Source of the DNA: Spirochaetaceae bacterium
GTDB taxonomy: Bacteria; Spirochaetota; Spirochaetia; SZUA-6; Bin103
Length of the DNA stretch: 64,000 nucleotides
NCBI GenBank assembly: GCA_028821475.1
Contig: JAPPGB010000032.1
Coordinates: 1-64,000, forward strand
Direction: 5' to 3'
In this document: positions 1-55,764 of the stretch, in pieces
How positions within the stretch are numbered: the first letter of the stretch is position 1
How the letters are laid out: each line of letters starts with the position of its first letter
Notes under the pieces: generated by a model
Told to the model about the DNA's origin: nothing
The model's input: the letters and a program-made list of their open reading frames with translations, nothing else
The model's database searches: none
Made by a program: the position numbers and the translations under genes

Positions 1-746
1 CAATCAGCTCGACCCAGAATCACGCTTATCCCATCGATATTCGTGGCGCTGCTGACACCGTGCTCCTTGATGACCTCGGGCGCGTTTATATAGGTGAGGC
101 TCTGGCCGAGATACTGTGCAAGCGCTGCGTTACTGGGCTCCGCCAGCTTGATAACAACCGTGTATCGGTCGGTGGCCGTTACCGACTCGCCAGGTGGCAG
201 CTGCCACGTAAGGGCGGTCGGTCCGGCTTCCGCAAAGTCGCCCAGGCCCAGCATGCGCTGAAAGTTGAATACGACATCATCAGCGGTTAGTTCTCTCCCA
301 TCCATCGGCGCCTTGTTTTGCCATTTAATACCTTTGCGGATCTTGAAGATAATCGTGAGTGGGTCGGGAGTGTCCCAGCTCTCAGCCAGATGCGGTCTAA
401 AGAGGGATAGAGGCAGGTACTGGCTACTGAACGAAAATATGTCCCTATCTATTGCCCAGTCCATGATTCCCAGCTTCTCTGTGGTGGCACCGGTGACCAG
501 TGTTGGGACATGGCTGAAATGGGTGTCAGCATTAAATGGCATCCAGGTGGCGTTCGTTGCAACGGTCAATGTCCCGCCATACTCTGGTGCCACCACCACC
601 TTGCCGGTGGTGGGGTCGGTCACATACTTCTTGTCGGCAGCGGCTGCCGGCTCCTCCTCTGCGCCAGCGGCCCACAGGCCGGTTGCGGTCAGGATGAGGC
701 CACACAGCACTGCGAGCCCCGTCTTAAATGGAATTGTCTGTCTCAT
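1..746 (-). CDS. Peptide-type ABC transporter substrate-binding protein, N-terminal part (cut by window edge)
   Basis: The reading frame opens with ATG at 746 and stays open to base 1, so the C-terminal part lies outside the window. The start is preceded by GGAGG at a good distance. The protein begins with a signal peptide ending near LWAAGAEEEP, followed by a binding-protein domain of the DppA/OppA type (SBP family 5) with the PEYGGTLT strand and the segment ESWDTPDPLTIIFKIRKG. It is closely similar over about 215 residues to the binding protein at 4031-5824, which points the other way. After APEVIKEHG the two sequences stop resembling each other abruptly, so this copy may be rearranged or frameshifted near the edge. 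Binding protein for oligopeptides or similar solutes in the periplasm is inferred from the family. Confidence 0.85.
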   Translation of the reverse strand, partial: MRQTIPFKTGLAVLCGLILTATGLWAAGAEEEPAAAADKKYVTDPTTGKVVVAPEYGGTLTVATNATWMPFNADTHFSHVPTLVTGATTEKLGIMDWAIDRDIFSFSSQYLPLSLFRPHLAESWDTPDPLTIIFKIRKGIKWQNKAPMDGRELTADDVVFNFQRMLGLGDFAEAGPTALTWQLPPGESVTATDRYTVVIKLAEPSNAALAQYLGQSLTYINAPEVIKEHGVSSATNIDGISVILGRAD

Positions 747-1486
747 AGAGATAGACCTCCGACAAATATTGTTTGAGAGCAGTCATTCCACTGCCGGCCC
801 CTCGCCTGCTCCATTCGAGCGAGGGCGACACCCCGTAGCGGCGCAGCCGTCCGGTCTTTCGTTAGTCTCTTATCGCGTGCCTCCTTTGGCGCGCCGCGCC
901 GAAAGGCAGCCATGCGCGCCGCCGCGCGTGGTGGCGGTGCTGCACGTCACCCATCTGCTTCTTGCTGCCGGCAAAGTCGCTACGCATGTTGATGTGGACT
1001 GGTGGAGTCGGCCGACGTCGGCCGTTGGAGGCACGGATGCGTGGCGGGTGTGTGCCACGCGGATGGCTGGTGCCGCGCTCAGCACCGGCGCCGAGCGGCT
1101 GGCTGCCGCGCGGTTAGGTAGTCGGTAGTCGGTAGTCGGTAGTCGGTAGCGGGCTGGATGCTGTCGGTGCCCATTTGCGGACGAGTGTAGAGGCCGGCCC
1201 AAATCCGTGACAAGCGCGACCCACCGCGTTGCGTCACCGCCAACCGGCCACTGCGCTGACTGTCATCATGGCACTTCATCGGCATCCGTCGCCCCAAGCG
1301 AGCCATGCTAGCGTGGGCGCGACCAGCCTGTCAACGACTCGGACGTCACCGAACATCACCGGCCACCACTGCGCTGACTGTCGTCATGGCGCGTCATCAT
1401 CGATCCGTCGAACCCACCCACTCTCTACGGTCGCCGGCCGGTTCCGTGGCTTGCAGCATCCCGGGGTTGTGCGTAGAGTCTCGTTC
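747..1486. other. Non-coding stretch with short repeats
   Basis: I see no convincing gene in these 740 bases. The left end must hold the promoter of the leftward binding-protein gene; the sequence ACAATATTTGT just upstream of its ribosome binding site is a short inverted repeat. The middle holds a 7-base tandem repeat at 1117-1148. The right part holds a duplicated GCGCTGACTGTC[A/G]TCATGGC element at 1253-1274 and 1371-1392, 118 bases apart. Confidence 0.5.
1117..1148. repeat. 7-base tandem repeat (GTAGTCG, about four copies)
   Basis: Four consecutive copies of GTAGTCG are visible, followed by a decayed copy. The tract lies outside any recognised gene and is a possible slippage site. Confidence 0.8.
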
Positions 1487-2212
1487 ATGAGCCACGCTGC
1501 TCTCCCGACCGACTCGGCAACAGGCGCGATGGGGGCGCCCGTCGCTCCGGTCATTCCGCTGGAGAATGGAGATCGGCTGCCGCGTTGCGAGTTTGAGCGG
1601 CGCTATCTCGCCCGGCCCGACATCAAGAAGGCGGAACTGATCGAGGGGGTAGTCCACATGCCGTCGCCCGTCCGCGCGACCCATGCCGAGAAGCACGGTG
1701 ACCTGTTGGCATGGCTGCGCGTTTACAGCGCATCGACCCCCGGCGTCTCGGTGCTCGACAACGCCACCGTGCGTCTGGACCTCGACAACGAGCCGCAGCC
1801 CGACGTGCTCATGCGCATCAAGCCGGCCGCCATCGGCCGGTCGCGACTCGACGCCGACGACTACGTGAGCGGCGCGCCCGAGTTGGTGGTCGAAGTGGTG
1901 GCGAGCAGCGCAGCCTACGACCTGCATGACAAGCTGCACGCCTACCGCCGCAACGGGGTGCTGGAGTACCTGGTCTGGCGGGTATACGATGACGCAATCG
2001 ACTGGTTCGTGCTTACCGCAGACGAGTACCGGCCCCTGGCGCCGGATGCCGCCGGAATTCTGTACAGCCAGACGTTCGCCGGTCTGCGCCTTGCCTCCAA
2101 CGCGCTCCTCGCCGGCGACTTCGCCGGCGTGCTGTGCGAGTTGAGCAACGGCATCGCCACCCCTGAGCATTCCGCGTTCGTCGCCAAACTGGGATCGGCG
2201 TCCGCTCGATAG
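1487..2212 (+). CDS. Uma2 family (DUF820) putative restriction endonuclease
   Basis: The 241-residue protein has the layout of the Uma2/DUF820 family, a PD-(D/E)XK-fold nuclease group of unclear role that is often present in many copies. Visible motifs are the substrate-side AELIEGVVHMPSP segment near residue 50, the conserved EPQPDVLM segment near 105, and PELVVEVVASS followed by KLHAYRRNGVLEYLVW near 130-165. The frame is open further upstream, but the family begins near ERRYLAR, so ATG 1487 is preferred over upstream starts. The 3' end is intact. It is a single gene with no visible partner, lying between two ABC binding-protein paralogs and next to a toxin-antitoxin pair. Confidence 0.8.
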   Translation: MSHAALPTDSATGAMGAPVAPVIPLENGDRLPRCEFERRYLARPDIKKAELIEGVVHMPSPVRATHAEKHGDLLAWLRVYSASTPGVSVLDNATVRLDLDNEPQPDVLMRIKPAAIGRSRLDADDYVSGAPELVVEVVASSAAYDLHDKLHAYRRNGVLEYLVWRVYDDAIDWFVLTADEYRPLAPDAAGILYSQTFAGLRLASNALLAGDFAGVLCELSNGIATPEHSAFVAKLGSASAR

Positions 2213-2394
2213 TCCGCCTCTCAGGTGCCGCGGTCGCGGAGTCAGCGGTCACCGTAGCGTCGTCCAGTCACTCGGGTCGACGGCGGCACCCGCGCCCGCG
2301 CAGTCCGGCCCACCGTCCCGTAAGCAGTCCACCCGGTCGCAATCGGCGCCACGCTACCAGCCAGTTCAGCGTCGACTCGATCGAGAGGCGACGG

Positions 2395-2510
2395 CGAGAA
2401 CAAGGCGATAGCACACACGTAGCAATCCTGCAGGGAGTACCGGACCTTGCCGGCTTGGCGCGTATCGACGACCTTGGCGGCGTGACGCAGAAGATCTTCC
2501 GCCGCGGGCC
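2395..2510 (-). pseudogene. Possible transposase remnant in an otherwise empty gap
   Basis: The 479 bases between 2213 and 2691 hold no intact gene. On the minus strand a short stretch reads DTRQAGKVRYSLQDCY followed by VCAIALFS. It resembles the N-terminus of a transposase family that begins with a DPR..G.V.YSL.D pattern. The rest of the supposed gene is not present. This could be chance resemblance; I cannot check it without a search. Confidence 0.22.
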
Positions 2511-2656
2511 GGCGGGAGCTGGCGTGCCGGTCACGGTCTGGGGGACGTAGCGCCAAGCGCGACGTCGCTGGTTGGCTACCAACTCCAGTACGCTCCACGC
2601 CGGGAATGGTGCATGACGGGTGTGACTGACGGTTGACTGACGACACGCGCGCGCCC

Positions 2657-2685
2657 TTGCAGGCGTCGTATGAGCGCTGTATATT
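2657..2685 (+). promoter_or_regulatory. Promoter placed for a leaderless toxin-antitoxin transcript
   Basis: TTGCAG at 2657-2662 and TATATT at 2680-2685 are separated by exactly 17 bases, a near-consensus sigma-70 arrangement. The antitoxin ATG begins only six bases after the -10 element, so transcription from this promoter would start at or next to the A of the ATG. There is no ribosome binding site between the promoter and the start, consistent with a leaderless mRNA. Confidence 0.6.
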
Positions 2686-2691
2686 CGTCAT

Positions 2692-3315
2692 ATGGCGCGC
2701 GCATCCTCTAAACAGTCCGCGACTCTTCAAGCATATGCTGACCCGGCCGAGATGCCGGCGAGCGAAGCCACGCGCGTCGCGATGCTCCTGGCTATCGACG
2801 AGCCGGACATACGGAGTGACGTACAGCTCGCGCGGCTGGTCGCCGGCGGTTTGCTTCCGGCATCGGCCGTCGCCCTGGCCGAGGTGCTTGGGCAGCATCG
2901 GGTGGTTGGACCGGTAGTCCCCGAGGCAACGCTCCGGCGAGTGCGCAGAGGCAGGAAAGTGCTGTCCAGACAGCATAGCGAACGACTCTATGAACTGGGA
3001 CGCGTCGTCGATGCAGTCAGCCGCGCCTACCACGGAGACCGGGACGCAATCGAAGCGTTCCTGAGCCGTCCACACCCATTGCTCGAAGGCGAGACGCCGT
3101 TCGACATGGTGCGCTCCAGCTCGGCAGGTGCGGAAGCGGTTCTGAATCTCATTCGTCGGGCGGAGGCCGGCGTGGCTGTTTGGCGAAACCGCGAACGCTC
3201 CCGCGGACGATGCGTGCCTATCGGATCGGCGATCCTGCTGGCCGGTTTCCGGTGTGGAGCACGGCAGGCGCCAGACGCGTGTCCGGCCGGTGGCACGAGG
3301 CCGGCGCCGAAGTAA
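2692..3315 (+). CDS. Xre/MbcA/ParS-type antitoxin (DUF2384)
   Basis: The first 165 or so residues match antitoxins paired with RES toxins: an N-terminal helical region, ALAEVLGQHRVVG, then VLSRQHSERLYELGRVVDAV and a C-terminal FLSRPHPLLEGETPFDMV segment ending in VLNLIRRAEAGVAV. Such proteins bind the toxin and repress the operon. Family members normally stop just after that last segment, at or near the toxin start. Here no stop is present and the frame runs 43 codons further into the toxin gene, so the tail beyond about residue 164 probably reflects loss of the normal stop. The start is fixed by the promoter immediately upstream. Confidence 0.8.
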   Translation: MARASSKQSATLQAYADPAEMPASEATRVAMLLAIDEPDIRSDVQLARLVAGGLLPASAVALAEVLGQHRVVGPVVPEATLRRVRRGRKVLSRQHSERLYELGRVVDAVSRAYHGDRDAIEAFLSRPHPLLEGETPFDMVRSSSAGAEAVLNLIRRAEAGVAVWRNRERSRGRCVPIGSAILLAGFRCGARQAPDACPAGGTRPAPK

Positions 3316-3671
3316 TCTACGCCTCCGAATCCTATTCGACAGCCATGTTGGAGACGCTCGCCCATTGGAACGGAGCGCCGCCGCCGAACCAGCACTTCGT
3401 CGAGATCACGATACCTACGGGCACCAGCCATGAGGTGGTAACGGCCGATCTCGTTCGCGATTGGTCCCATCCGGACGGGGAGGCGGCCCGCCGCTTCGGT
3501 CGCGCGTGGTATGCCGACATCCGAAGTACACTCCTGATCGTCCCGTCGGTCGTGGCACGTATGGAGCGCAACATAGTCATCAACACGCGGCATGCAGATT
3601 TCGATCGCTTGACGGTCGGTCTGGAAACCCCCGTCTGGTGGGACCAGCGCCTCTTTCGCGACTCCGACTGA
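3210..3671 (+). CDS. RES domain toxin
   Basis: The 153-residue protein starts MRAYRIGDPAGRFPVWS and shows the conserved GRWHEAG strand, IYASESYSTAMLETLAHW and a terminal WWDQRLF, the signature of RES toxins. The family's studied members are ADP-ribosyltransferase-fold enzymes that deplete NAD+. ATG 3210 matches the family start; a TTG at 3180 would add ten residues. The gene overlaps the open tail of the antitoxin frame by about 100 bases. The Arg and Glu positions expected for the active site appear present, so the toxin is likely intact. Confidence 0.85.
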   Translation: MRAYRIGDPAGRFPVWSTAGARRVSGRWHEAGAEVIYASESYSTAMLETLAHWNGAPPPNQHFVEITIPTGTSHEVVTADLVRDWSHPDGEAARRFGRAWYADIRSTLLIVPSVVARMERNIVINTRHADFDRLTVGLETPVWWDQRLFRDSD

Positions 3672-4030
3672 CCGCGTAGCTGCCGGACGAGCACCTCTTG
3701 TACTGGTTGCGGGGTTGCGGTGGGCCGAGCTGGAGGGAGCCTCGGAACACCTGGTCGATACCGCGCTGGAGTGCCGGGACGAGGAGCACTACCTGCAACT
3801 GCTCTTGACGAAACGCGTTTGACACCTGGCCTCGTCCATGCCATGGTTGCGCGAAGCGGGCCGATGCGTATGACCTGAGCCCATGATCCCATGAGGCACC
3901 CGCCACGCGCACGACGATTTGTGATTGCCGTCGCTGTTTGGCCGCCTGCGTTGCGGGCGCGAGAGTGGCAGGGAGCGGCAACTCACCACGGCAGAACTCT
4001 CAACACACAGAGAATCGAGGAGTGATCAAT
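3672..4030 (+). other. Gap with a possible decayed C-terminus and the leader of the binding-protein gene
   Basis: No intact gene is seen. One plus-strand frame ending at 3822 reads WAELEGASEHLVDTALECRD and then a short tail ending LLLTKRV; it looks protein-like but has no start and no family I can name. The 3' end of the gap holds the untranslated leader of the next gene, with GAGGAG at 4017-4022. Confidence 0.3.
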
Positions 4031-5824
4031 ATGGATCTTCCAAGAATCGCACCCACCTTCGTGTGTGTGCTCGTGCTCGGCTTGGCCGCAACCGGCCTGT
4101 GGGCGGCTGCGGCGGAAGAGGAGCCGGCCGCGGCGATGGAGAAGGAAATGGTGCGCGACCCGGCCACCGGCGAGATGGTCAGCGCGCCCGAGTACGGCGG
4201 GACCTTGACCTATGCCACCGGCGGCGCCGCTCCGGCGAATGCTGACACCCACTTCCTCCATGTCCAGGCAATGGTCACCGGCGCCACCACGGAGAAGCTG
4301 GGCATCATGGACTGGGCCATCGACAGGGACGAGTTTTCGTTCCGCAACACGTACATACCGTTGTCCGTCTACCGACCACATCTGGCTGAGAGCTGGGACA
4401 CCCCCGACCCGCTCACGATCATCTTCAACATCCGCAAGGGAGTGAACTGGCAAAACAAGGCGCCGATGAACGGGAGGGAGTTTACCGCTGATGACGTCGT
4501 ATTCAACTTTCATCGCCTGCTGGGCCTGGGCGAGTTCGCCGAAGCCGGGCCGAGTCCCTTTACCTATCAGCGGCCAGCTGGCGAGTCGGTAACGGCCACC
4601 GACCGATACACGGTCGTCATCAAGCTGCCGGAGCCCAGTGCCGTAGCGCTCGGACAGTATCTCGGCATCGGCCTCACCTACATGAACGCCCCCGAGGTGA
4701 TCCGGGAGCACGGTGACGTGAAGGACTGGCGGAACCTGGTCGGTACCGGGCCCTATCTGCTGACCGATTGGACCGACGGTAGCTCATTTACCTTCCAGAA
4801 AAATCCCGACTACTGGAAAGACGACGAGAAGTACCCGGGGAATCGGCTGCCCTATATCGACGAGATACAGGGCCTTATCGTCCTGGAAGAAGCCACCTAC
4901 CTGGCGGGACTGCGCACCGGCAAGATTGATTTCCTGGGCTTTCCCGTTGGCGTCTCCGACATCACGTCGGTCGAGGTGCTTGAGAGCCTGCAGAAAAACA
5001 ACCCCGAAATCGTGCTGCAGGCGTGGTGGGACCGTTCGGAAAACTCGTATGCGATTGACGCGAGCAAGCCGCCGTTTGACGACGTCAGGGTGCGCCGGGC
5101 GATGCAGATGGCAATCGACCTCGAGGGCATCGACCGCAGCGTCTACCAGGGCACTTCAGCCTGGCAGCCTCAGGGCATAATCGGGGAAGGCGTCGGCGGG
5201 TACTTCACCCCTTTCGACGAGTGGCCCGAAGAGGTCAAGAAGGGCTATCGGTACGATCCGGCCGGGGCGGAAGCGTTGCTGGATGAGGCCGGATATCCGC
5301 GCGGTGCCGACGGCACGCGATTCAAGACCGTGTTGAACCATCTTTATCGGTTTCCCTTGGGGTACAGCGAACTGGCTGCCACCTACTGGGCCGAGATTGG
5401 CGTTGACGTGAAGATCAACGTATTGGATGAAGCCGACCCGGCGCGAAGCAACCGTACGTGGGAAGGTCTGATATATCACACGATGGGCAACAACACTGAG
5501 CCGTTGGGTTTCGTACGCCAGATGGTACACTCGAGCAGCCACGAAGACCTGCACGGAGTCAGGTACCCTGAGTTGGATGCCCTGCTCGACGCCGCCGCGG
5601 CCACTGATTCCGAAGAGGAACGGCAGAGGCTGGTCAAAGAGGTGGATCTGTACACCATGGAGAACCACTGGTGGATATGGGGTCCCAAAGCCGGGAAGTA
5701 CATGTCGCACCAGCCGTGGGTGGTCGGCTTCAACGGTGAAACCTGGCTTGGATTCATGGACCGCCTCACCATCCTCGCACGTCTCTGGATCGACAGTGAA
5801 CTGAAGGCGGAAATGGGTCATTAG
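4031..5824 (+). CDS. Peptide-type ABC transporter substrate-binding protein
   Basis: The 597-residue protein is a complete family-5 extracellular solute-binding protein, the class that delivers peptides, opines or sugars oligomers to DppBC-type permeases. It has a signal peptide (cleavage expected near GLWAAAAEEE), the PEYGGTLTYATGG strand, NWQNKAPMNGREFTADDVVF, and DDVRVRRAMQMAIDLEGI near residue 350. ATG 4031 is chosen because GAGGAG lies eight bases upstream; the frame is open further upstream. It is the first gene of an operon with two permeases. A strong hairpin follows the stop codon. The paralog at the left window edge shares its N-terminal third. The substrate cannot be told from sequence. 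Confidence 0.92.
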   Translation: MDLPRIAPTFVCVLVLGLAATGLWAAAAEEEPAAAMEKEMVRDPATGEMVSAPEYGGTLTYATGGAAPANADTHFLHVQAMVTGATTEKLGIMDWAIDRDEFSFRNTYIPLSVYRPHLAESWDTPDPLTIIFNIRKGVNWQNKAPMNGREFTADDVVFNFHRLLGLGEFAEAGPSPFTYQRPAGESVTATDRYTVVIKLPEPSAVALGQYLGIGLTYMNAPEVIREHGDVKDWRNLVGTGPYLLTDWTDGSSFTFQKNPDYWKDDEKYPGNRLPYIDEIQGLIVLEEATYLAGLRTGKIDFLGFPVGVSDITSVEVLESLQKNNPEIVLQAWWDRSENSYAIDASKPPFDDVRVRRAMQMAIDLEGIDRSVYQGTSAWQPQGIIGEGVGGYFTPFDEWPEEVKKGYRYDPAGAEALLDEAGYPRGADGTRFKTVLNHLYRFPLGYSELAATYWAEIGVDVKINVLDEADPARSNRTWEGLIYHTMGNNTEPLGFVRQMVHSSSHEDLHGVRYPELDALLDAAAATDSEEERQRLVKEVDLYTMENHWWIWGPKAGKYMSHQPWVVGFNGETWLGFMDRLTILARLWIDSELKAEMGH

Positions 5825-8173: not shown

Positions 8174-8398
8174 GGCACGCCTCCGGCCGGCGCTGCGCCC
8201 GAATAACACCACTGCCGCGCAGCGATTCGCCGCCGCGTTCACGCATGCGGCGCCCCCGGCGGTGACCACGACGGGCGCCCGCGGCGGAGTTGGAGCGAGC
8301 CGTCGCGTGTCTCCTCATCGGTTGGCGGGATGGTGGAGATACCTGCCGCCAGCGTCAACGAGCAGATGCAATTCGCGCAATGGGGTAGGTTGTGCCCC

Positions 8399-8836
8399 AT
8401 GGAACGCGTATCGACCTCGCCCGACGAATATCTTGCGACGCTGCCGGAGGAGTTTCGCGGCGACATGACGGCGCTGGACGAGCGCATCGCGGCGGCCCTG
8501 CCGGGGCACCGGCGCTGCCTGTGGGAGGGGGTGTTCTGGGGCGGCAGCGCCCAGTCGATCATCGGCTACGGCGACTATTCGTACGTGCGCTCGGACAAGA
8601 AGCAAGTGGAGTGGTTCGTCGTCGGGCTCGCGCGGCAGAAGAACTATTACAGCGTCTACGTCAATGCAGCCGACGGCCGCCGCTACCTCACCGAGGCGTA
8701 CGCCGGCCGGCTCGGCAAGGCGAAGGTGGGCAAGAGCAACGTGACCTTTCGCCGGCTCGCCGACGTCGAGTTGGAGGTGCTGATCGAGTTGGTCGAGCGC
8801 GCCGGCGTGCTGATGAGCGCCGCCAAGCCGGGGTAG
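8399..8836 (+). CDS. DUF1801 (YdhG-like) domain protein, copy 1
   Basis: The 145-residue protein carries the DUF1801 pattern: YLATLPEEFRGDMTALDERI at the start, LWEGVFWGG and IIGYGDYSYV in the middle, and a YYSVYVNA strand, the fold shared with frataxin-like/YdhG proteins. Biochemical function is unknown. ATG 8399 is chosen because the homologous copy at 17236 shares it exactly. The Rpn nuclease gene starts three bases after the stop, so the two are probably translated together. Confidence 0.8.
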   Translation: MERVSTSPDEYLATLPEEFRGDMTALDERIAAALPGHRRCLWEGVFWGGSAQSIIGYGDYSYVRSDKKQVEWFVVGLARQKNYYSVYVNAADGRRYLTEAYAGRLGKAKVGKSNVTFRRLADVELEVLIELVERAGVLMSAAKPG

Positions 8837-8839
8837 GTA

Positions 8840-9832
8840 GTGCCGGATCTGCCACCTGCCACGCCGCATGATGCGCTGTTCCGAGCGTTGCTTGCAGACC
8901 CCGGACGGGCCGAGACGCTGGTACGCGAGTATCTGCCTCCCGCGGTGGCTGCGGAACTATCGGACGCCCCGATCCGCCTGGTCGATGCGAGCTTCGTGGA
9001 TGCGGTGCTGCACCAGAGCCACAGCGACCGGCTGTTCGAGGCGCGTCTGAAGGACGGCGGCAGCGCATTTGTTTACGTGCTGCTGGAGCACAAGGCGGCG
9101 CCCGATCCGGGTACCCCGTTGCAGATGCTGGGCTACATGGTGCGCATCTGGCAGCGCTATGCCGAGGACCGCGCATCGCGCCTGCGGGCGCTGCCGCCGA
9201 TCGTGCCGCTGATTTTCTACCATGGCCGCGAGCGCTGGAGCGGGGCGCTGTCGGTGGCGGAGATGATCGCGGGCGAAGGGGAGTTGGCGGCCTTTGCGCG
9301 CCGGTTATGCTGCGTGCTGCATGATCTGGGACAGCGACCGCTGGCGGCGCTGTCGGGGGACCCGGCGGTATGGTCGGGGCTGGCGGCGTTGGTGATGGCG
9401 TTTCGCGGACAGCCGGAGGAAGGGGTGCTGCGGCGGATCCTTTCGGGGGCGCCGGACGAAAGCGAGTTGGAGCTGCAGGTGCTGTCGTATATTGTGAGAA
9501 CCTACGAGCTGAGTCCCGCGGTGCTGGAGACGGCAGCGCGGGCGGCGAAGCCGCAACGCTGGGAGGCGCTGATGTCAACGGTCGCGGAAGCATGGATGCG
9601 GGAGGGCAAGGCCCAGGGTAGAGCCGAGGGCAAGGCCGAGGGCAAGGCCGAGGGCAAGGCCGAGGGCAAGGCCGAGACGCTGCTTCGTCTCCTGCAGCGG
9701 CGATTCGGTCCCGTTGCGGAGAGTGTTCGGGCGCGGGTGGCGGACGGGACGGCGGCGGAGATCGATGCCTGGTTCGATGCCCTGCTTGACGCGCAGGGCC
9801 TGACGGAGGTGTTCGACGCCCGTCCGCAGTGA
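8840..9832 (+). CDS. Rpn-family recombination-promoting nuclease, copy A
   Basis: The 330-residue protein belongs to the Rpn/PD-(D/E)XK family related to transposase_31. It has HDALFRALLADPGRAETLV at the N-terminus, the acidic strand SHSDRLFEAR, the catalytic strand YVLLEHKAAPD (E-x-K) near residue 80, LQMLGYMVRIWQRY, and PLIFYHGRERW near 125. E. coli Rpn proteins are DNA endonucleases that raise RecA-independent recombination; activity here is inferred. It starts with GTG, right after DUF1801. The C-terminus has a 12-base repeat giving AEGK four times. It differs from copies B-D at several C-terminal positions (for example ESVRARVADGTAAE). Confidence 0.9.
   Translation: MPDLPPATPHDALFRALLADPGRAETLVREYLPPAVAAELSDAPIRLVDASFVDAVLHQSHSDRLFEARLKDGGSAFVYVLLEHKAAPDPGTPLQMLGYMVRIWQRYAEDRASRLRALPPIVPLIFYHGRERWSGALSVAEMIAGEGELAAFARRLCCVLHDLGQRPLAALSGDPAVWSGLAALVMAFRGQPEEGVLRRILSGAPDESELELQVLSYIVRTYELSPAVLETAARAAKPQRWEALMSTVAEAWMREGKAQGRAEGKAEGKAEGKAEGKAETLLRLLQRRFGPVAESVRARVADGTAAEIDAWFDALLDAQGLTEVFDARPQ
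9623..9676 (+). repeat. 12-base in-frame tandem repeat (AEGK x4) in Rpn copy A
   Basis: Four full copies of GCCGAGGGCAAG and a half copy encode an alternating Ala-Glu-Gly-Lys stretch. The same tract occurs at 15643-15672 (two copies), 16818-16871 (four) and 18462-18491 (two) in the other Rpn genes, so the number varies between otherwise near-identical paralogs. Confidence 0.95.
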
Positions 9833-9876
9833 GCGCCGCCCGACCGCTCGGTGTGAGGCGAAGAGGTAACCGACCC

Positions 9877-9957
9877 ATGCCGGCCCCCGTTCTGCTGACG
9901 GACCAACAGGTTCAGGACTACTTGGCCCACGGCTTCGCGCGTGCGCCGCATGCTTGA
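9877..9957 (+). pseudogene. Truncated 5' end of the PhyH-HEAT gene
   Basis: The bases following Rpn copy A match those following copy D, including the ribosome binding site and the first 20 codons of the PhyH-HEAT gene at 18692. The frame reads MPAPVLLTDQQVQDYLAHGF and then departs into unrelated sequence with a stop at 9957. It marks the right-hand end of the duplicated segment. Confidence 0.85.
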
Positions 9958-9978
9958 CCAGGTGGATCTCACCGCGCT

Positions 9979-10467
9979 TCATGAGTCGTCCTGATACTCG
10001 AGCACCTCTCGGGCCTCGCGGTTCAGTTCCTCCGCGTGGGCGTCGAGCGCGGCAAGCTCTCGTTGCGGTGCCGGGGCAGCCCGCAGGTAGTCACTCGGTC
10101 GCAGGATCGTAAGGCCCGCAACCGTGGATCCGTAGTACGCGCCGAAGTGTGTGCGGTCGCCGGTGATCAGATGGGTCGCTCCGGCGGCCGCGGCCGCCGA
10201 GAACACGGGGCGGTCCTTGTCCGGCAGGTCCACGGGACACCGGTCGGCGGGAGACTCCGGTACGACGAGTGCGGATTGCAGCCTGGTGTCCAGCCGCCGG
10301 ATCTGTTCCGGTTCCCGCAGGTTGCGGCGTGCTTCTTCGATCACGTAGCGAGACACCAGGAGCGTGCAACTCCCGGCGCGTTGCGCGTCCCACAGCCGCT
10401 CAATGCTGGGGCTGCCGTAGGCCGCCGAGAACAACACGTTCGCATCGAGAAACAGTCGGTCTGCCAA
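9979..10467 (-). CDS. PIN domain toxin (VapC-like ribonuclease)
   Basis: The 162-residue protein has the PIN fold acidic residues: LFLDANVLFSAA at the start, a central Glu in VIEEARRNL, and the C-terminal DRPVFSAAAAAGATHLITGD pair of aspartates. PIN toxins cleave RNA with bound metal ions. The start is TTG 10467, five bases after the stop of the AbrB-like antitoxin gene, so the pair forms one operon read leftwards. The C-terminal 25 residues are charged and beyond the PIN core. Confidence 0.8.
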   Translation of the reverse strand: MADRLFLDANVLFSAAYGSPSIERLWDAQRAGSCTLLVSRYVIEEARRNLREPEQIRRLDTRLQSALVVPESPADRCPVDLPDKDRPVFSAAAAAGATHLITGDRTHFGAYYGSTVAGLTILRPSDYLRAAPAPQRELAALDAHAEELNREAREVLEYQDDS

Positions 10468-10472
10468 TGAGG

Positions 10473-10760
10473 TCAGGTGGGACGGTCGTGGGGTACGCGG
10501 TCCGGGTCGAGACCGAGCTTGCGCACTTCCTCCCGCGCCCAGGCGTAGTCCTGCTCGTCCACGGCGTTTGTCAGCAGGAACTCCGCCTTGCGCTGGCGGG
10601 TGTAGGTCTCCACCGGCAGGGCTACGGCGGGCCGCACCAGCACGCCTTCCTCGTGCGCCTCGGTGATCACGAAAGATCCCTCCTCCATGCCGTATTCGCG
10701 CCGCAGTTGCGCAGGAATCACCACGGTGCCACGTTTACCGACTTTGCTCGTTTGCGTCAC
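10473..10760 (-). CDS. AbrB/MazE-type antitoxin (SpoVT-AbrB DNA-binding domain)
   Basis: The 95-residue protein begins VTQTSKVGKRGTVVIPAQLR, the classic swapped-hairpin AbrB DNA-binding motif, followed by EYGMEEGSFVITEAHEEGVL and a C-terminal tail that would bind the PIN toxin. GTG 10760 is chosen because GGAGG lies five bases upstream; the frame stays open further upstream but those residues are not family-like. A palindromic element lies just upstream and may be its own operator. Confidence 0.85.
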   Translation of the reverse strand: MTQTSKVGKRGTVVIPAQLRREYGMEEGSFVITEAHEEGVLVRPAVALPVETYTRQRKAEFLLTNAVDEQDYAWAREEVRKLGLDPDRVPHDRPT

Positions 10761-10781
10761 ACGCACCTCCAGTTCGGCGCC

Positions 10782-10800
10782 TGATAATCTGATAATCAGA
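10782..10800 (-). promoter_or_regulatory. AT-rich palindrome upstream of the AbrB/PIN operon
   Basis: TCTGATAATCAGA at 10788-10800 is a perfect inverted repeat around a central A, and TGATAATC is repeated directly at 10782-10797. It stands out from the GC-rich surroundings and is 22-40 bases before the antitoxin start, where an autoregulatory operator and -10 element would be expected. The role is inferred from position. Confidence 0.5.
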
Positions 10801-10875
10801 ATAGCAGAACCTTCTCGAGCCGGCAAGCCCGCACGGCTCGGATGACACTCGCATGACGGATATACTCTCGCCGCG

Positions 10876-11322
10876 ATGCAGTTCTGGGATCCTCACTTTC
10901 ACATCTGGGACGCGGCCGCGGCACGGCTGTTGGCGGCCAATCCGCACGTTCCGGTAGTAGTCGATCACCTGGGGACGCCGACCCTCGCCGACCTGCGCGG
11001 CGACACCTACTGGGACGGGATGCGCGCCCTCGCCGACTGTCCCCACACCACCATGAAGCTGTCGATGCTCCCCTACGTGGACCGGGAGTGGGACACGAAC
11101 GCGCTGGCCACGGAGAGCGTCCTGCGCGTGATCGACCTGTTCGGCGTGGAGCGCTGCTTCTTCGCCTCCAACTTCCCCGTCGACCTGAAGTCCGGGTGGC
11201 CTGCCGCGCGCCTGTTCGGCGCCTTCGCACGCTTGGTGAGCGAGATGCCGGAGGTGGACCGGCGGCGGCTGTTCGCCGGCAACGCCATGCGCGCCTACGG
11301 CGTCGCCGTATGCGATGGGTAG
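10876..11322 (+). pseudogene. Amidohydrolase family 2 gene with its middle deleted
   Basis: The 148-residue frame begins MQFWDPHFHIWD, the metal-binding HxH start of amidohydrolase_2 (TIM-barrel) enzymes. It then jumps at residue 17 or so straight to ANPHVPVVVDHLGTP, which in the family lies well over 100 residues further on, and continues to a normal C-terminus with RRRLFAGNAMRAYGV. Family members are about 270-300 residues. The deletion kept the frame, but half the barrel is missing, so an active enzyme is unlikely. A start at ATG 10876 is clear. The next gene overlaps its last eight bases. Confidence 0.75.
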
Positions 11323-12064
11323 CCGCCCGGGAGAGACCGGCAAGAGCGTGCGCCGCCTTGCTTCGCCGGACCTTGGGAGACGGTGGAGTACGGGTGATGT
11401 GGTGGTGCTCCGGTACATGGGGCTCATGCGCGCGGGCACGCCGGCGATCGTGGTGGAGGATAGCGACGAACGGGTGCTGGTGTACGTACCGGACGGCGTG
11501 CGGTGGTTTGGCTCCGGCGCGGCGGCGGCGGGGCGCAGCGAACGGGTTCGGGCGATTGCACGCGGCGAGACGGTTGTGACGGGCCGTCACATCTCCTGGT
11601 ACAACCACAACCTGCGGGTGCTGTTGCCGGGCCGGCCGTATTCGATCTGGCTGCTTTGGTCGCCGGCGTGGGAGTTCAAGTACTACTACGTGAACCTGGA
11701 GGCGCCGTTTGCGCGCTCCGCGGTCGGGTTCGACTCGCGCGACCACGTATTGGACGTGTGCGTCCGCGCGGACCGCACCTGGTACTATAAGGACAAGGAC
11801 GAATTGGACACTCGTGTCGAGGTGGGCTTGGTCCCGGCGCAGGCGGCGGCCGAAGTGCGGCGCGACGCGGAGCATGCGGTGGCGTTGATCGAGGACTGGC
11901 AGCCGCCGTTCAGTTCCGGGCTCGAGCAATGGCGTCCCGATCCGGCGTGGGAGGTGCCGGTGCTGCCTGCCGGGTGGCAGGCCCATCCCTCGAACATGGA
12001 GCCCTGGACGCGGGCGCCGACCGGCGGGGTGGCGACGCCTGGCGCCGTGGCGAGCGGAGGGTAG
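11315..12064 (+). CDS. DUF402 (FomD-like) protein, first of a tandem pair
   Basis: The 249-residue protein shows the DUF402 core: WEFKYYYVNLEAPFARSAVG, GFDSRDHVLDVCVRADRTWY and YKDKDELDTRVEVGL near residues 125-175. Characterised members of this superfamily (FomD, Ntdp) hydrolyse nucleotide esters or diphosphates using conserved Asp/Lys residues and metal; the precise substrate here is unknown. It overlaps the end of the amidohydrolase remnant. The N-terminal 25 residues are not shared with its neighbour, so the true start may be later than 11315. Confidence 0.75.
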   Translation: MGSRPGETGKSVRRLASPDLGRRWSTGDVVVLRYMGLMRAGTPAIVVEDSDERVLVYVPDGVRWFGSGAAAAGRSERVRAIARGETVVTGRHISWYNHNLRVLLPGRPYSIWLLWSPAWEFKYYYVNLEAPFARSAVGFDSRDHVLDVCVRADRTWYYKDKDELDTRVEVGLVPAQAAAEVRRDAEHAVALIEDWQPPFSSGLEQWRPDPAWEVPVLPAGWQAHPSNMEPWTRAPTGGVATPGAVASGG

Positions 12065-12074
12065 GCACTCCGAC

Positions 12075-12731
12075 ATGGCGGCACGGTGGAACCCCGGAGA
12101 TTGCGTCGTCCTGCGGGCGGTCGGCCCGCTCACGGTGGGCAAACCTGCGATTGTCGTCGAGGACAGTGCGGAGCGGGTCATGCTATACGTGCCCCACGGG
12201 GTCCGTTGGTTGGGGCCCGCAGCGCCATCAGGCGACCGGGTGGAGATGATTCGCGCCTTTGCCAGGGGCGAGCGCGTCATCGCTTTGGAGATGATCCCGT
12301 GGCGCAATCACGTGTTGCACGTCCTGCTTCCCGGCCGGCCCTTCTCGGTGTGGCTGTTCTGGTCGGCCGAGTGGGAGTTCCTCTCGTACTACGTGAACAT
12401 GGAGACGCCGTTTACTCGGTCGGCTGCGGGGTTCGACACCTGCGACCGTGTGCTCGACATCTGCGTGCGTGCCGATCGCACCTGGTACTACAAGGACCTC
12501 GACGAATTGGAAGTGTGCGTGGAGGTTGGCCTGATGAGCGCGGCGATGGCAGCCGAGGTGCGCCGAGATGCCGAGCAGGCAGTCGCACTGATCGAGGGCT
12601 GGCGGACGCCGTTCGATGCTGAACTCGAGGGCTGGCGGCCCGACCCGGCCTGGTCAATCCCGCTGCTGCCGGCGGGATGGGAGGCGCATGCGTCCGAGAC
12701 TCACCCGTGGGTGCGGTTGCCTTCCAAATAG
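12075..12731 (+). CDS. DUF402 (FomD-like) protein, second of a tandem pair
   Basis: The 218-residue protein aligns along its whole length with the preceding gene: both share WxPGD or WSTGD, KPAIVVEDS, LLPGRPFSVWLFWSAEWEF, YYVNMETPFTRSA, DRVLDICVRADRTWYYKD and LLPAGWEAH. Ten bases separate the two genes, so this is an old tandem duplication read as an operon. The conserved Asp and Lys residues of the DUF402 active site are present in both. No other gene joins the operon; a convergent remnant follows. Confidence 0.75.
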   Translation: MAARWNPGDCVVLRAVGPLTVGKPAIVVEDSAERVMLYVPHGVRWLGPAAPSGDRVEMIRAFARGERVIALEMIPWRNHVLHVLLPGRPFSVWLFWSAEWEFLSYYVNMETPFTRSAAGFDTCDRVLDICVRADRTWYYKDLDELEVCVEVGLMSAAMAAEVRRDAEQAVALIEGWRTPFDAELEGWRPDPAWSIPLLPAGWEAHASETHPWVRLPSK

Positions 12732-12739
12732 CTGAGCCG

Positions 12740-13049
12740 CTACGGGCCGATGAGGGAGGTCTTGGTCTCCCGAAACCGAGTAACGGTGAAGTCCCAGCGC
12801 GATGCATGCTGCGTCAGAAGGCGGCGCGTCGCGTCATCAACCTGGCTCGCAATGTCCCCCTCGTAGTACGCAAGCGCCTTGACGGCGTCGGTCGGCGGGA
12901 ACTCATTGCCGTACAGCGCCACGGCGGCGCCAAGCCCGTCACGCCAACGCGGTTCCACCGTACAAGACGAAGTTGTCCGGGACTTCGGCGAGGAAAGGCC
13001 ACAGTTCGCGCTGCGCCTGCGGCAGGATGTCGACTATCGGTTCGAGCAT
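12740..13049 (-). pseudogene. AbiEii-type nucleotidyltransferase, internally deleted and frameshifted
   Basis: ATG 13049 starts LEPIVDILPQAQRELW and reaches FVLYGGTALA, the N-terminus of AbiEii/AbiGii nucleotidyltransferases, then stops at 12939. The C-terminal part appears in another frame: EFPPTDAVKALAYYEGDIAS followed by a helix ending near 12740. The central catalytic region, where SVDFDFF would be expected, is absent. The start is two bases after the stop of the gene upstream, as in intact antitoxin-toxin pairs of this type. Confidence 0.7.
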
Positions 13050-50699: not shown

Positions 50700-51221
50700 A
50701 TGGCACGGAGTGGAGAGATTACATTCAGGGGCAATCCGATGACGCTGGCCGGCGATCGGCTGGCCGTCGGACAAGCGGCGCCCGACTTCAAGCTGCACTA
50801 TTTCGACGACGGCATGCAGGAGCTCACGCTCGCCGATCTGAACGGCAAGCCGAGCTTGATCAGCGTGGTGCCGTCGCTGGACACGCCGGTGTGCGCGGCG
50901 CAGACGAGCCGCTTCAACGCGGAACTGGCGGACCTGGGGGAAAAGATCAACGCGGTCACGGTCAGTTGCGATCTGCCGTTCGCGCAGGCGCGCTTCTGCG
51001 GCAGCGAGGAGATCGCCAACATCCGGGTGGCGAGCGACTACCAGGAACGTGCGTTCGGTGCCGACTGGGGGACCCTGATCGAGGAACTCAAGCTGCTCAC
51101 GCGCGCGGTGTACGTGCTCGATGCGGACGGCACCGTCGTGTACGAGCAGATCGTTCCCGAGGTGGTCGACGAACCTGACTACGACGCCGCGCTGGCGGCG
51201 CTGAAACAACAGCTCGCATAG
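50700..51221 (+). CDS. tpx: Thiol peroxidase (atypical 2-Cys peroxiredoxin)
   Basis: The 173-residue protein has the Tpx pattern: ISVVPSLDTPVCAAQTSRFN with peroxidatic Cys65, and ADLPFAQ-like DLPFAQARFCGSEEI with resolving Cys100. It reduces hydrogen peroxide and alkyl peroxides using thioredoxin. AAGGAG seven bases upstream selects ATG 50700. It is divergent from the PotA gene and stands before the RelE-helicase gene with a 151-base gap, probably as a separate transcript. Confidence 0.95.
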   Translation: MARSGEITFRGNPMTLAGDRLAVGQAAPDFKLHYFDDGMQELTLADLNGKPSLISVVPSLDTPVCAAQTSRFNAELADLGEKINAVTVSCDLPFAQARFCGSEEIANIRVASDYQERAFGADWGTLIEELKLLTRAVYVLDADGTVVYEQIVPEVVDEPDYDAALAALKQQLA

Positions 51222-51352
51222 CGGCCCGAGGCCGTGCCGCCGCGGCGCGGTCTTCGGGACCGCCAGGCCGGCATCGCGTCTGCCACGGCCGCGGAGGCGC
51301 GGGTTCCGCATCAAGTGCGCCTGGGCCGGCGCACCGCCGTCGGCCGGGCTCT

Positions 51353-51370
51353 CGATTGCAGGGGCAATCG
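51353..51370 (+). promoter_or_regulatory. Perfect hairpin holding the ribosome binding site of the RelE-helicase gene
   Basis: CGATTGC (51353-51359) and GCAATCG (51364-51370) form a perfect seven-pair stem with loop AGGG. The only Shine-Dalgarno-like sequence (AGGGG) lies in this loop, and the ATG follows two bases after the stem. The element could be a protein operator or could gate translation. Confidence 0.55.
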
Positions 51371-51372
51371 GC

Positions 51373-54300
51373 ATGCAACGCACCTATACTCTCCTCCTGC
51401 ACGACACGGTGCGCGCCTACCTCCTGTCCCTGGGCAGCCGCGCCCGGCAACGCCTGCGCGAGAAGCTGGAGTTCCTGCAGCACGGCCTGTGGGACACCGG
51501 CGTGCGCGTCAAGAAGCTCAAGGGGGCGGCGCGCGCGGTGTTCGAGGCGCGGCTGACGCGCGGCGACCGGATCCTGTTCACGCTCGGCAGCGGCACGGGC
51601 GGTACAACGCCGATCTACGTGTGGGGCGTGGTGCAACACGACGACGTCACCGCCGCCGAGCGCCGGATCGTGCCGGTGAACGCGCCGTTTCTCGACTTCG
51701 AACCGCTCGCCGTCGAGAGTCTGCCGGAGTTGGACGCGGACACCCTGGACGGTGGCTACTTCTCGCTGGTGCAGTCGCAACCCTCCGCCGAACACGCCGC
51801 CGGCGCGGGCGGGGACGAGACCGCGCCGCCCGCCGCCGAGTGGTCCGCCGTCGGCACCGACACCGGACCGCAGCGCTGGCTGGTGGTGGACGACGAGGAG
51901 TGGCAGCGCCTGCAGCAGGCGCATCGGAGCGACCACCTCGAGCTGTACCTCTACCTGACGCGTGAGCAGGCGCGCTTGCTCGGCAGCGAGCCGCCGCTGC
52001 TGCTGTCCGGCACGGCCGGCAGCGGCAAGACCACCATCGCCGTGTACTTCCTGTTGCGCCACCGCGTGCGGCGGCTCGACGCGGCCGCCGGCGGCCGGCA
52101 AGAGTCCGCGACGTCCGCGACCTTGGGCGGGCCGCCGTCCGGGCCGGAGCGGGCGCTGTTCCTGACCCACAGCGCCCAACTGAAGCGGTTCTCGGAGCGG
52201 ATGTATCGCGGCCTGGTGGCCGCCACCGACCTGGAGAAGGCCCCTGAGGCGGTGCGCTTCTCCACCTACGGCGAACTGCTGGAGGAGATTCTGAGCCGCG
52301 CCGGACGGCGCGTACCGCACCGGCGGCCCGCGGGACTGGCCGAGTTTCGCGCCATCTTTCAGAACCACCCGGCGGCCGCGCGCTACGACGCCGAGCTGGT
52401 GTGGGAAGAGATCCGGGCGATCGTGAAGGGCGCGAAACCGCAGGTGAGCGGGCGCCGGTTCAGGGAACTGGCGGCCCGCGCCGGCGCCGCCGCGGCCACC
52501 GGCCGGGAACGGGCGGAGTTGGCGGAGTACGTGGTGCGGCTGGCCAACCTGGAGGCGGGATCCCGGCTCGACGCGATGCGCGCACGCAGGACCTCGTTCG
52601 CGACGCTGCGCGAGTTCGCGGCCTGCCTGCGCGGCGGAGACCTGTCCCGGCTGGACGAACAACAGTTCCTGCTCGACGCCGCGCTGCGCCTGATCGACAA
52701 GCAGGCCGCACGCCTGGGTCAGCCGCTGCTGACGCTGCGCGAGTACGAGGGGCTCGGGGCCAAGCGCGCGCCCAACTTTCCGTTCGAGCGGCAGGAGATC
52801 CATGCCTTGGCGGCGTACTACCAGCAGCAGTTGGAAGCGGCGGGGCTGCACGACGAGATCGACTTGACCCGGGCGGCGCTGACCTACCTGGAGCGGCACG
52901 ATGACCAGTTCCGATTCGACCTGGTGGTGTGCGACGAGGTGCAGGACTTCACCGACCTGCAGTTGGCGCTGCTGTTCCGCCTCGCCGAGGATCCGCGCCG
53001 CACCGTGCTCACCGGTGACCCCAAGCAGATCATCAATCCGAGCGGGTTCCGCTGGGAGGAGGTGCGCGCCCGCTACTACGAGCGCGGCCTGGCGGTGCCG
53101 GAGGTGGTCAACCTCAGCATCAACTTTCGCAGCGTAGGGAACATCGTCGGCCTGGCCAACGAGCTGCTGGTGCTGAAGCGGGCGCTGGTCGGCGCCGCGG
53201 CCGGCGAGATTACCGAGCGCTGGATGTTCCGGGGGCGGCCGCCGCTGCTGGCCGAGGGGCTTGCCGAGCCCGCGGTGCTGGACGCGGTGCGCCGCGGCGG
53301 CGCGGGCCAGGTGGTGCTGGTGCGCACGGCGACGGAGCGCGACCGGCTGCGCGCGGCGCTGCAGTCGGAGCTGGTATTCACCATCGCCGACGCCAAGGGC
53401 CTGGAGTTCGACGCGGTGCTCCTGTGGCGTTTCGCGGGCGCGGAGGGGGCGCCTGGCCTGTGGCGGCGCATTGCCGCCGGACAGGTGCGCGGCGCCGCCG
53501 ACGCCCCGCATATCCGCCACGAGTTGAGCCTGCTGTACGTGGCGGTGTCGCGGGCGCGCAACACCCTGGTGATCTGGGACGGCGAGACGGTCAGTCCGAT
53601 CTGGGGCATGGCGGCGCTCGCCACGCACGTCTACCGGTCGCCGGACGCGGACGCCCTGGCTGCCACCTGGCAGCGGGTATCGACGCCGGCCGAATGGGAG
53701 GCGCAGGGTGACTACTTCGCCGAGCGGGAACACTACGCGGCCGCCGAAGAGTGCTACCGCAATGCCCAGGCGTCGGCCAAGGAGGAGGTGGCGCGCGCCC
53801 ACCGCCTCGAACAGGAGGGCGATCACCGCACCGCCGCCGCCCTGTTCGCCCGCCATGGCCGCCCCGAACAGGCGGCGGCGAACCTGGAGCGGGCCGGGGA
53901 GTTCCCGGAGGCCGCCCGGCAGTGGCGGCGCGCCGGCGATGAGGAGCGTGCCGTTTCGTGCGAGGCGCGCCACTACGAGGCGGCTGGCAACTTCAAGGCG
54001 GCCGCGAAGCGCTGGCGGCAACTGGGCGACGAGGCGGCGATGCTGCGCACGTGGGACCGCGGTCGCCAGTACCGGCAGCTTGCGGCGTTCTACCGGGAGC
54101 GGAAGGCGAGCGGCGAGGCGGCGCGCTACCTGAAGCTGGCCGGCGACCATGCCGGAGCGGCGGTCGAGTTTCGCCGCGCCGGCATGCTGGAGCCCGCGGC
54201 GCAGGAATTCGAGAGCGCGCGCGACTACAAGCGCGCGGCCGCGCTGTACCGGCGGCTGGGAGACAGCGCCGCCCTGCTGCGCTGCCTGGGATCGATGCAC

Positions 54301-55764
54301 ACCGGCGGCGCGCACGAAGCGGCGCTGGTATACGAGGAACAGCGCAACTGGCAGAAGGCGGCCGAGCACTTCCGCCGCTACGCCGGCAGCTCGCCGGAGG
54401 CGCGCGCCGACCTGGAACGGCGGCTGGCAACCATCACGCCCAAGCGGCCCGGCATGCGTGCGGCGGTGCGCATGGACGCCCTCGGACACCACCTGCGCGC
54501 GGCGCCCATATACGAGCGCCACGGCCATCCGGCACGCGCGGCGGAGCTGTACGGCGCCGACGGCGAGCATGAACCGGCGGCGCGCTGTCTGGCAGCGAGC
54601 GGCCGGCTCAAGGATGCGGCGCGGGTAGCGCTGCGTGCGCCTGCCGAGAGCGCCCTCAATGCCGCGGTCGAGCATCTGTACGGCTACGTGCTCGGCAACC
54701 CGGCGCCCGGCGGGCGGATTGTGCAGGACAAGCAACTCGTGGCGCGGGTCGGCGAGCTCGCGCGCGCAGCGGGGCGCCTGTCGCGCGCCGGCGAGCACCG
54801 GCCCGCACTGGCGCACTACCTGGCGCTGCGCAAACTGCCCCTGGAAGCGGACGCGTTCAGGGCCGAGGTGCTCGCCGCCTACGCCGGCCTGCGGCGCCAC
54901 GCCGACGCGGTCGAACTTTGCCTGCGACAGGGGGCGCCGGACGCGGCGCACGACTACCTGGACGAATACCCCGACGCGGACTGGCCGATCGCCGCGGTGG
55001 AGCGGTTGGCGCAACGCGCGGGCGGCCGGCTCGGCGGCGTCGACGACGGCGAAATCTCGGGGGTGCTGTTCCGGATCATGAATTCCTGCTTGCAGCGCGG
55101 CGGCGAGCCCGACCGGCGGCCGCGCCTGACCGCCCTGCTGCGCGGCATGTCGCCGGAGTTCGCCTTCTGGACATCTCTGTCCCGCGACTGCAGCGAGCTG
55201 CTGATCGCGCTGCGCAGCTACGATCACCTGGTGGGCGTGGTGGTGTACCTCTCGGTCTCGGGCGTCGATTCCGCCGACCGCCGCTACTTTCTCGACCGGC
55301 TGCAAACGGTCGCGGAGGCGGAGCGGGACCGGGAGCTGGAGCTGTGTATGCTGCTCGGGGACGACGCGGCATTCGGCGCGGCAATCGCCGACCTCGAGCC
55401 GGCGCCGCACAATGTTGCGCTGTTCGCCGAGAGCGACACGCGCTACCGCGAGGCGGTCGCCCTCATGCTGGCTTCAGGCAACGCCGGCGAGGCGGCGTCG
55501 GTGTGCGTTCGGCACGGAGACTTCGCCGAGGGCGGACGCATCTACGAGCGGTCGGGCGACCTGCTGCTCGCGGCGCGCACCTTTCGCGACGGCGAGCTGT
55601 ACGACGATGCGCGGCGCTGCTACGCGGCGCGCGGCGACGAGGCGGGGGTGGCACGGGCGTTCGAACGGGAGCGCCGCCATGACGAGGCGATGGCGATCTG
55701 GCAGCGCCTCGGCAGGCAGCGCGAGATCGAGCGCCTCGCCCGCAAGATGGGGCGCGGCGGATAG
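51373..55764 (+). CDS. RelE-like domain fused to SF1 (UvrD-type) helicase and TPR-like array
   Basis: The 1463-residue protein has three parts. Residues 1-85 read LLLHDTVRAYLLSLGSRARQ, then VKKLKGAARAVFEARLTRGD and RILFTLG, the RelE/ParE-fold pattern. Residues about 190-745 are an SF1A helicase: Walker A SGTAGSGKTT (about 213), DEVQDF (about 521), LTGDPKQI (547), INFRSVGNIV (585), AKGLEFD and LLYVAVSRARN (720). Residues about 775-1460 are more than fifteen TPR/SNAP-like helical pairs rich in A..Y...G, such as AAALFARHGRPEQAAANLER. All core helicase motifs look intact. A defence or stress role on nucleic acids or ribosomes is inferred; the family is not one I can name. Confidence 0.85.
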   Translation: MQRTYTLLLHDTVRAYLLSLGSRARQRLREKLEFLQHGLWDTGVRVKKLKGAARAVFEARLTRGDRILFTLGSGTGGTTPIYVWGVVQHDDVTAAERRIVPVNAPFLDFEPLAVESLPELDADTLDGGYFSLVQSQPSAEHAAGAGGDETAPPAAEWSAVGTDTGPQRWLVVDDEEWQRLQQAHRSDHLELYLYLTREQARLLGSEPPLLLSGTAGSGKTTIAVYFLLRHRVRRLDAAAGGRQESATSATLGGPPSGPERALFLTHSAQLKRFSERMYRGLVAATDLEKAPEAVRFSTYGELLEEILSRAGRRVPHRRPAGLAEFRAIFQNHPAAARYDAELVWEEIRAIVKGAKPQVSGRRFRELAARAGAAAATGRERAELAEYVVRLANLEAGSRLDAMRARRTSFATLREFAACLRGGDLSRLDEQQFLLDAALRLIDKQAARLGQPLLTLREYEGLGAKRAPNFPFERQEIHALAAYYQQQLEAAGLHDEIDLTRAALTYLERHDDQFRFDLVVCDEVQDFTDLQLALLFRLAEDPRRTVLTGDPKQIINPSGFRWEEVRARYYERGLAVPEVVNLSINFRSVGNIVGLANELLVLKRALVGAAAGEITERWMFRGRPPLLAEGLAEPAVLDAVRRGGAGQVVLVRTATERDRLRAALQSELVFTIADAKGLEFDAVLLWRFAGAEGAPGLWRRIAAGQVRGAADAPHIRHELSLLYVAVSRARNTLVIWDGETVSPIWGMAALATHVYRSPDADALAATWQRVSTPAEWEAQGDYFAEREHYAAAEECYRNAQASAKEEVARAHRLEQEGDHRTAAALFARHGRPEQAAANLERAGEFPEAARQWRRAGDEERAVSCEARHYEAAGNFKAAAKRWRQLGDEAAMLRTWDRGRQYRQLAAFYRERKASGEAARYLKLAGDHAGAAVEFRRAGMLEPAAQEFESARDYKRAAALYRRLGDSAALLRCLGSMHTGGAHEAALVYEEQRNWQKAAEHFRRYAGSSPEARADLERRLATITPKRPGMRAAVRMDALGHHLRAAPIYERHGHPARAAELYGADGEHEPAARCLAASGRLKDAARVALRAPAESALNAAVEHLYGYVLGNPAPGGRIVQDKQLVARVGELARAAGRLSRAGEHRPALAHYLALRKLPLEADAFRAEVLAAYAGLRRHADAVELCLRQGAPDAAHDYLDEYPDADWPIAAVERLAQRAGGRLGGVDDGEISGVLFRIMNSCLQRGGEPDRRPRLTALLRGMSPEFAFWTSLSRDCSELLIALRSYDHLVGVVVYLSVSGVDSADRRYFLDRLQTVAEAERDRELELCMLLGDDAAFGAAIADLEPAPHNVALFAESDTRYREAVALMLASGNAGEAASVCVRHGDFAEGGRIYERSGDLLLAARTFRDGELYDDARRCYAARGDEAGVARAFERERRHDEAMAIWQRLGRQREIERLARKMGRGG

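Follow-up and report, generated by a model that had tools for sequence, protein, structure and literature searches.

The 64,000 nt stretch of spirochaete DNA that was analysed as a whole (hereafter the window) carries on its forward strand a long gene whose product joins a RelE fold, a linker, an SF1 helicase and a repeat array, in this order, in one polypeptide. The gene and its features are located as follows:

51373..55764, + strand, RelE-SF1 helicase-repeat gene (open reading frame; same-frame end-to-end homologues)
51373..51672, + strand, RelE-fold domain, residues 1-100 (AlphaFold2, Foldseek against the PDB, Pfam RelE-clan matches of relatives, invariant residues)
51673..51864, + strand, flexible linker, residues 101-164 (pLDDT below 50; 29% identity to relatives)
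51865..53652, + strand, UvrD-like SF1 helicase core, residues 165-760 (Pfam UvrD-helicase and UvrD_C; motifs; fold match to UvrD/PcrA/HelD)
52009..52035, + strand, Walker A, GTAGSGKTT (motif position; largely invariant in the alignment)
52402..52431, + strand, family signature WEEIRxIxKG, inside a helicase insertion (scan pattern)
52924..52950, + strand, Walker B / motif II, VVCDEVQDF (motif position)
53392..53559, + strand, motifs V and VI, AKGLEFDAV ... LLYVAVSRAR (motif positions)
53653..55761, + strand, helical repeat array, residues 761-1463 (AlphaFold2 to residue 1150; periodicity; orthologue identity)

The open reading frame starts with an ATG and comprises 1463 codons plus a stop codon. 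A sequence-only reading of this DNA had placed the start at 51353, which is 20 bases too early, but it was right in describing one unbroken frame with the RelE-helicase-repeat order, as the protein is a single 1463-aa chain with homologues that align from end to end in the gene's own frame. There are no in-frame stops inside the gene, compared with ~25 after shuffling of the same bases (minimum 12 in 500 shuffles), and together with the same-frame, end-to-end homologues this identifies 51373-55764 as a genuine gene rather than a chance open reading frame. An antisense frame of 1437 aa (51097-55410, − strand) mirrors the GC-rich third positions of the gene. It was ruled out as a gene and is regarded as a mirror artefact of the high GC content, the homologues matching the + frame.

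Single-sequence searches with the N-terminal residues gave no Pfam or PDB match, and a sequence-profile search of the PDB returned insignificant matches only. A Pfam scan of 26 family members yielded weak N-terminal matches, most commonly to RelE-clan families (Gp49 in 6, YoeB in 4, HigB-like in 4 and ParE_like in 2 members), the best E value for YoeB being 2.6e-4. Structure prediction, proposed earlier as the check on a RelE-like pattern at the N-terminus, returned a RelE fold rather than none: the AlphaFold2 model of residues 1-113, built from 21 sequences, shows the order b-a-a-b-b-b-b-a with a pLDDT of 86, and among the 50 Foldseek matches listed from the PDB nearly all were RelE-superfamily toxins (RelE, YoeB, HigB, YafQ, ParE and related proteins; best E 6.6e-5, TM up to 0.77 by target). 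The b-a-a-b-b-b-b arrangement and the solved RelE-family toxins that it matched place the domain within the RelE/ParE toxin superfamily fold, and a chance look-alike is rejected by the model and the PDB matches despite the empty single-sequence searches.

All 41 members share L35, G43, K47, E58, R60, R66 and H89 without variation. We take E58, R60, R66 and H89 to correspond to the catalytic positions K52, K54, R61 and R81 of E. coli RelE (aligned by eye). Polar residues are conserved at the RelE active-site positions, with a chemistry different from the K/K/R/R of RelE itself. Barnase-type RNases use a Glu/Arg/Arg/His set, and the presence of such an invariant set at the catalytic positions makes RNA catalysis by the RelE-fold domain plausible, judging from the residues. 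The catalytic set is not universal, as sister clades and the defence protein ArmD (see below) carry K, R or S at position 58. The linker that follows is predicted to be disordered, which points to a RelE domain that is probably held on a flexible tether.

All core SF1 helicase motifs had been read from the letters, and this was borne out, with motifs Q, I, Ia, II, III, IV, V and VI intact, a Pfam UvrD match at E 1.9e-11, and UvrD, PcrA, Rep and HelD as the nearest solved folds. The protein scores far under the curated equivalog cut-offs of PcrA, UvrD and Rep (39 bits vs a cut-off of 911 for PcrA) and falls outside these housekeeping helicases. Motifs IV and V are only ~90 residues apart. A spacing of this size is insufficient for the 2B domain of UvrD, which makes this motor a reduced form. 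The signature WEEIRxIxKG served as the scan pattern for family members; the ~90 residues adjacent to it are missing in the cyanobacterial, Ureibacillus and Heimdallarchaeota forms (L053, L055, L056, L054, L032, L033).

The C-terminal array had been described as TPR/SNAP-like. Its helical solenoid character was confirmed by AlphaFold2 (modelled to residue 1150), but the canonical TPR period of 34 was not, as the array has a period of 13 residues per helix and 26 per pair. We therefore reject a canonical TPR protein, no TPR family having reached the cut-off in the Pfam search of the protein. The 13/26 period recurs in most of the long-form relatives tested, whereas the relative from the cyanobacterium Microcoleus peaks at ~34, which is TPR-like; the type of array differs between clades, with the RelE domain and helicase retained. 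Identity to the orthologue in genome G002 amounts to 91% in the RelE domain, 88% in the helicase and 57-82% in the array. No other part of the protein is as well conserved as the RelE domain, and the array is the least conserved and fastest-evolving. No positive selection was seen in the array, for which the orthologue dN/dS by YN00 indicates purifying selection (NG86 estimates are rough at the GC content of this gene).

Full-length relatives are patchily distributed over at least nine phyla and one archaeal MAG. The search for proteins with the same domain order, advised by the sequence-only reading, found co-linear relatives in dozens of genomes of several phyla (Spirochaetota, Neomarinimicrobiota, Acidobacteriota, KSB1, Aminicenantes, Calditrichota, Delongbacteria, Cyanobacteria and Bacillota) as well as in a MAG called Pseudomonadota and a Heimdallarchaeota MAG; several of these genomes are MAGs. 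The family is present in 7 of 247 sampled genomes of the phylum, in 9 of 26 of the order and, with more distant sister forms included, in 12 of 194 cyanobacteria. Phyla are mixed in the tree, where Neomarinimicrobiota and the Pseudomonadota MAG fall among the spirochaetes, and with the usual caution regarding MAGs these sequences suggest horizontal transfer between phyla. Cyanobacterial members are located on plasmids (NC_019755.1, NZ_CP042327.1; L032, L033), with partition genes of the ParA or ParA/ParB type close by. Searches for copies in phages or viruses gave none with the full RelE-helicase-repeat architecture.

Two paralogues exist in the window's genome and each is syntenic in G002, indicating that the gene is stably inherited in this genus. 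In Spirochaetes bacterium GWB1_60_80 the copy (MIAR01000043.1, 1-3000; L051) is broken by stops and frameshifts, and the gene is dispensable there.

The gene is surrounded in the window by ABC transporter, peroxiredoxin, MFS and oxidoreductase genes, with the peroxiredoxin gene 150 bp upstream and the MFS gene downstream in convergent orientation. As previously claimed, the locus has no adjacent small antitoxin gene. Among 20 relatives no conserved neighbour or partner was found and only close pairs share neighbours, which sets the gene apart from type II toxin-antitoxin systems; nor did the homologues lie in a housekeeping repair operon, the setting named beforehand as speaking against a fused toxin or sensor. 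Small genes do lie upstream in two cyanobacterial plasmids, but they are not related to one another. A defence-island neighbourhood was looked for and not found, since 39 PADLOC families were matched by 123 neighbours of family members vs 42 by 119 neighbours of ordinary UvrD genes; with no enrichment of defence genes, we reject defence-island membership. The commonest PADLOC family near members was PDC-S01 (5 proteins), and these matches probably reflect common AAA_14/DUF4143 ATPases. The 61%-identical paralogue is located at 8276-12754 (L099, G000:C54), where a Type III restriction enzyme and methyltransferase (1246-5420) lie ~3 kb upstream. This is one case only, and the same place in G002 is occupied by transporter and ATPase genes and has no Type III restriction system. 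Another relative (L035, 14409-19228) is followed by genes for a calcineurin-like phosphoesterase and an AAA_27/SMC-like ATPase, which resemble an SbcCD pair.

The earlier statement that no named system has this order needs correction, as ArmD of ARMADA Type II is described in a preprint as a RelE-like and UvrD fusion (Bell et al. 2025, PMC12458937), co-linear with the protein studied here. According to the same text, ARMADA anti-phage defence is abolished by ArmD deletion or Walker A mutation, and the system acts without abortive infection and without host shutdown. For comparison we used ArmD of E. coli ATCC 8739 (WP_000218176.1, 704 aa). In hhalign it matched the family co-linearly over the RelE domain and helicase (residues 6-700, probability 99.7%), with an N-terminal identity of 16% to our protein; ArmD retains the positions Arg60, Arg66, His89 and Asp90 and has Ser in place of E58. 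In both proteins a RelE-like domain at the N-terminus precedes an SF1 helicase of the UvrD family. However, ArmD ends with the helicase, whereas the 1463-aa protein continues for ~700 repeat residues, and ArmD is encoded in the four-gene operon ArmA-ArmB-ArmC-ArmD, whereas the gene in the window is solo and has no ArmA, ArmB or ArmC neighbours. Sister proteins of ~990-1320 aa (a cyanobacterial sample and Mesenet; L124-L131, L058) likewise begin with a RelE-like, though diverged, N-terminus; most keep R60, R66 and H89, but position 58 is K or R. Because ArmD and the sister clades share this N-terminus, the RelE-SF1 fusion is, on sequence comparison, an old arrangement. A large array and the solo-gene state come on top of it in the form from the window, and only these two features appear new relative to ArmD. 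Our literature search found no description of a RelE-helicase-repeat protein.

With the RelE, YoeB, HigB and YafQ toxins the N-terminal domain shares its fold and has, like them, basic residues and His at the positions of the active site, but the adjacent antitoxin gene of these toxins is absent here, a motor and an array are fused to the domain, and Glu and His replace a Lys and an Arg of RelE. GajB of Gabija, also a UvrD-like SF1 helicase of a defence system, was the best PADLOC match of the protein (2.5e-9), with the match confined to the helicase motifs; GajB lacks the RelE domain and array, and the OLD-family nuclease GajA, with which GajB is paired in Gabija, is encoded by none of the scanned window neighbours. 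Cami1, a CARF-RelE protein of CRISPR type III (PDB 8phj), was among the PDB matches of the RelE domain and likewise has a RelE-fold RNase within a larger, multi-domain protein that works together with the ribosome. Cami1 is under sensor control, but its sensor is a CARF domain and it has neither helicase nor array. In the Schlafen proteins SLFN11/13, an N-terminal RNase and a C-terminal SF1-type helicase are joined in one chain. Schlafen13 is a tRNA/rRNA RNase (PMC5862951). The likeness to the Schlafens is limited to the RNase and helicase layout; the RNase folds are unrelated and we do not claim homology. The succession of effector, NTPase and superstructure-forming repeats resembles the STAND/NLR conflict proteins (reviewed in PMC7159879), but here the NTPase is an SF1 helicase, as its motifs and UvrD family match show, and not a STAND domain.

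We tentatively interpret the protein as a single-protein defence or stress effector with an effector-motor-sensor build, that is, as a single-gene relative of ArmD, a reading that we consider possible though somewhat short of an even chance. The C-terminal solenoid would recognise a trigger, and this recognition would take the SF1 motor through its ATP cycle. Next, the RelE-fold domain, repressed at rest and controlled by the helicase, would act on RNA from its flexible tether as an RNA-cleaving or ribosome-binding effector; cleavage of mRNA on the ribosome is the likeliest mode, and translation would be slowed or foreign transcripts destroyed. Operon partners would be dispensable because the protein carries its own repeat array, unlike its distant relative ArmD. 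What we infer here is that the domain cleaves RNA and is repressed at rest, that the helicase controls it, that the array acts as the sensor and that the protein defends against phage. Conservation that is highest in the RelE domain and lowest in the array is the pattern expected of an effector and a sensor, and the patchy spread, plasmid copies, mixed-phyla tree, clade-specific array type and kinship to ArmD also favour this model. The RelE fold itself, its invariant site residues, the long disordered linker and the appearance of Cami1 among the PDB matches count in its favour too. It is opposed by the lack of defence-gene enrichment and of any phage or virus copy in our searches, by the syntenic, stable inheritance, by the purifying selection that extends to the array, and by the variation at position 58. 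Even in ArmD the role of the RelE domain appears open, given that ARMADA is non-abortive and that the available text of PMC12458937 mentions no RelE-site mutant. More doubtful is the wider view that the family constitutes a hitherto unrecognised single-gene prokaryotic sensor class with an SF1 helicase in place of the STAND/NLR NTPase, in which a RelE-fold RNase effector, a helicase switch and an exchangeable repeat receptor would be united in one chain. Such a class would span bacteria and an Asgard archaeon, and ArmD would be its stripped-down, operon-embedded relative.

Of the alternatives, the one that fares best, although we think it unlikely, is a translation or RNA quality-control factor with no immune role, in which the RelE fold would dock to the ribosomal A site or to RNA, the helicase would remodel or release stalled complexes, and the array would recruit partners. 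A RelE domain so strictly conserved across phyla fits a target that does not change, for instance the ribosome, the two paralogues are maintained vertically and syntenically in the genus, the solo gene has housekeeping neighbours, and the motor is structurally similar to HelD, an RNA polymerase recycling factor; a general factor should, however, be commoner than a family that is rare and patchy even within its order, and the kinship to the defence protein ArmD would be unexpected. A DNA-processing defence or repair helicase seems less likely again. The RelE fold would then be a module for binding nucleic acid or protein that has lost catalysis, and the helicase would do the work, as ArmD may in non-abortive ARMADA, a system that blocks phage without host shutdown. 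This would agree with a helicase closest to UvrD/PcrA and similar to GajB, and with a residue 58 that is not fixed across the wider superfamily, but the invariance of K47, E58, R60, R66 and H89 in the family exceeds what a binding fold usually needs, and the helicase scores far below the PcrA, UvrD and Rep cut-offs. A random fusion of a RelE toxin in a single genome, with no selection for a joint function, or an assembly or fusion artefact, can be dismissed, being refuted by co-linear relatives with the same order in dozens of genomes of several phyla, and nothing was found in its favour.

If the single-protein effector model is true, toxin control without an antitoxin would be built into one chain, and a single-gene system would be at hand in which to address the role of the ArmD RelE domain. 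Clear point mutants suggest themselves at E58, R60, R66 and H89 and at K219 of Walker A, and many natural variants in the family with the RelE domain and helicase but an altered array would permit a direct test of the sensor hypothesis. A contig from a viral database (IMGVR_UViG_3300044737_000121, 172-4533; L087) encodes a 1454-aa helicase relative with an unrelated-looking N-terminus of 300 residues, and a UvrD-like protein on large plasmids of Shigella/Escherichia matches residues 514-868 with ~24% identity.
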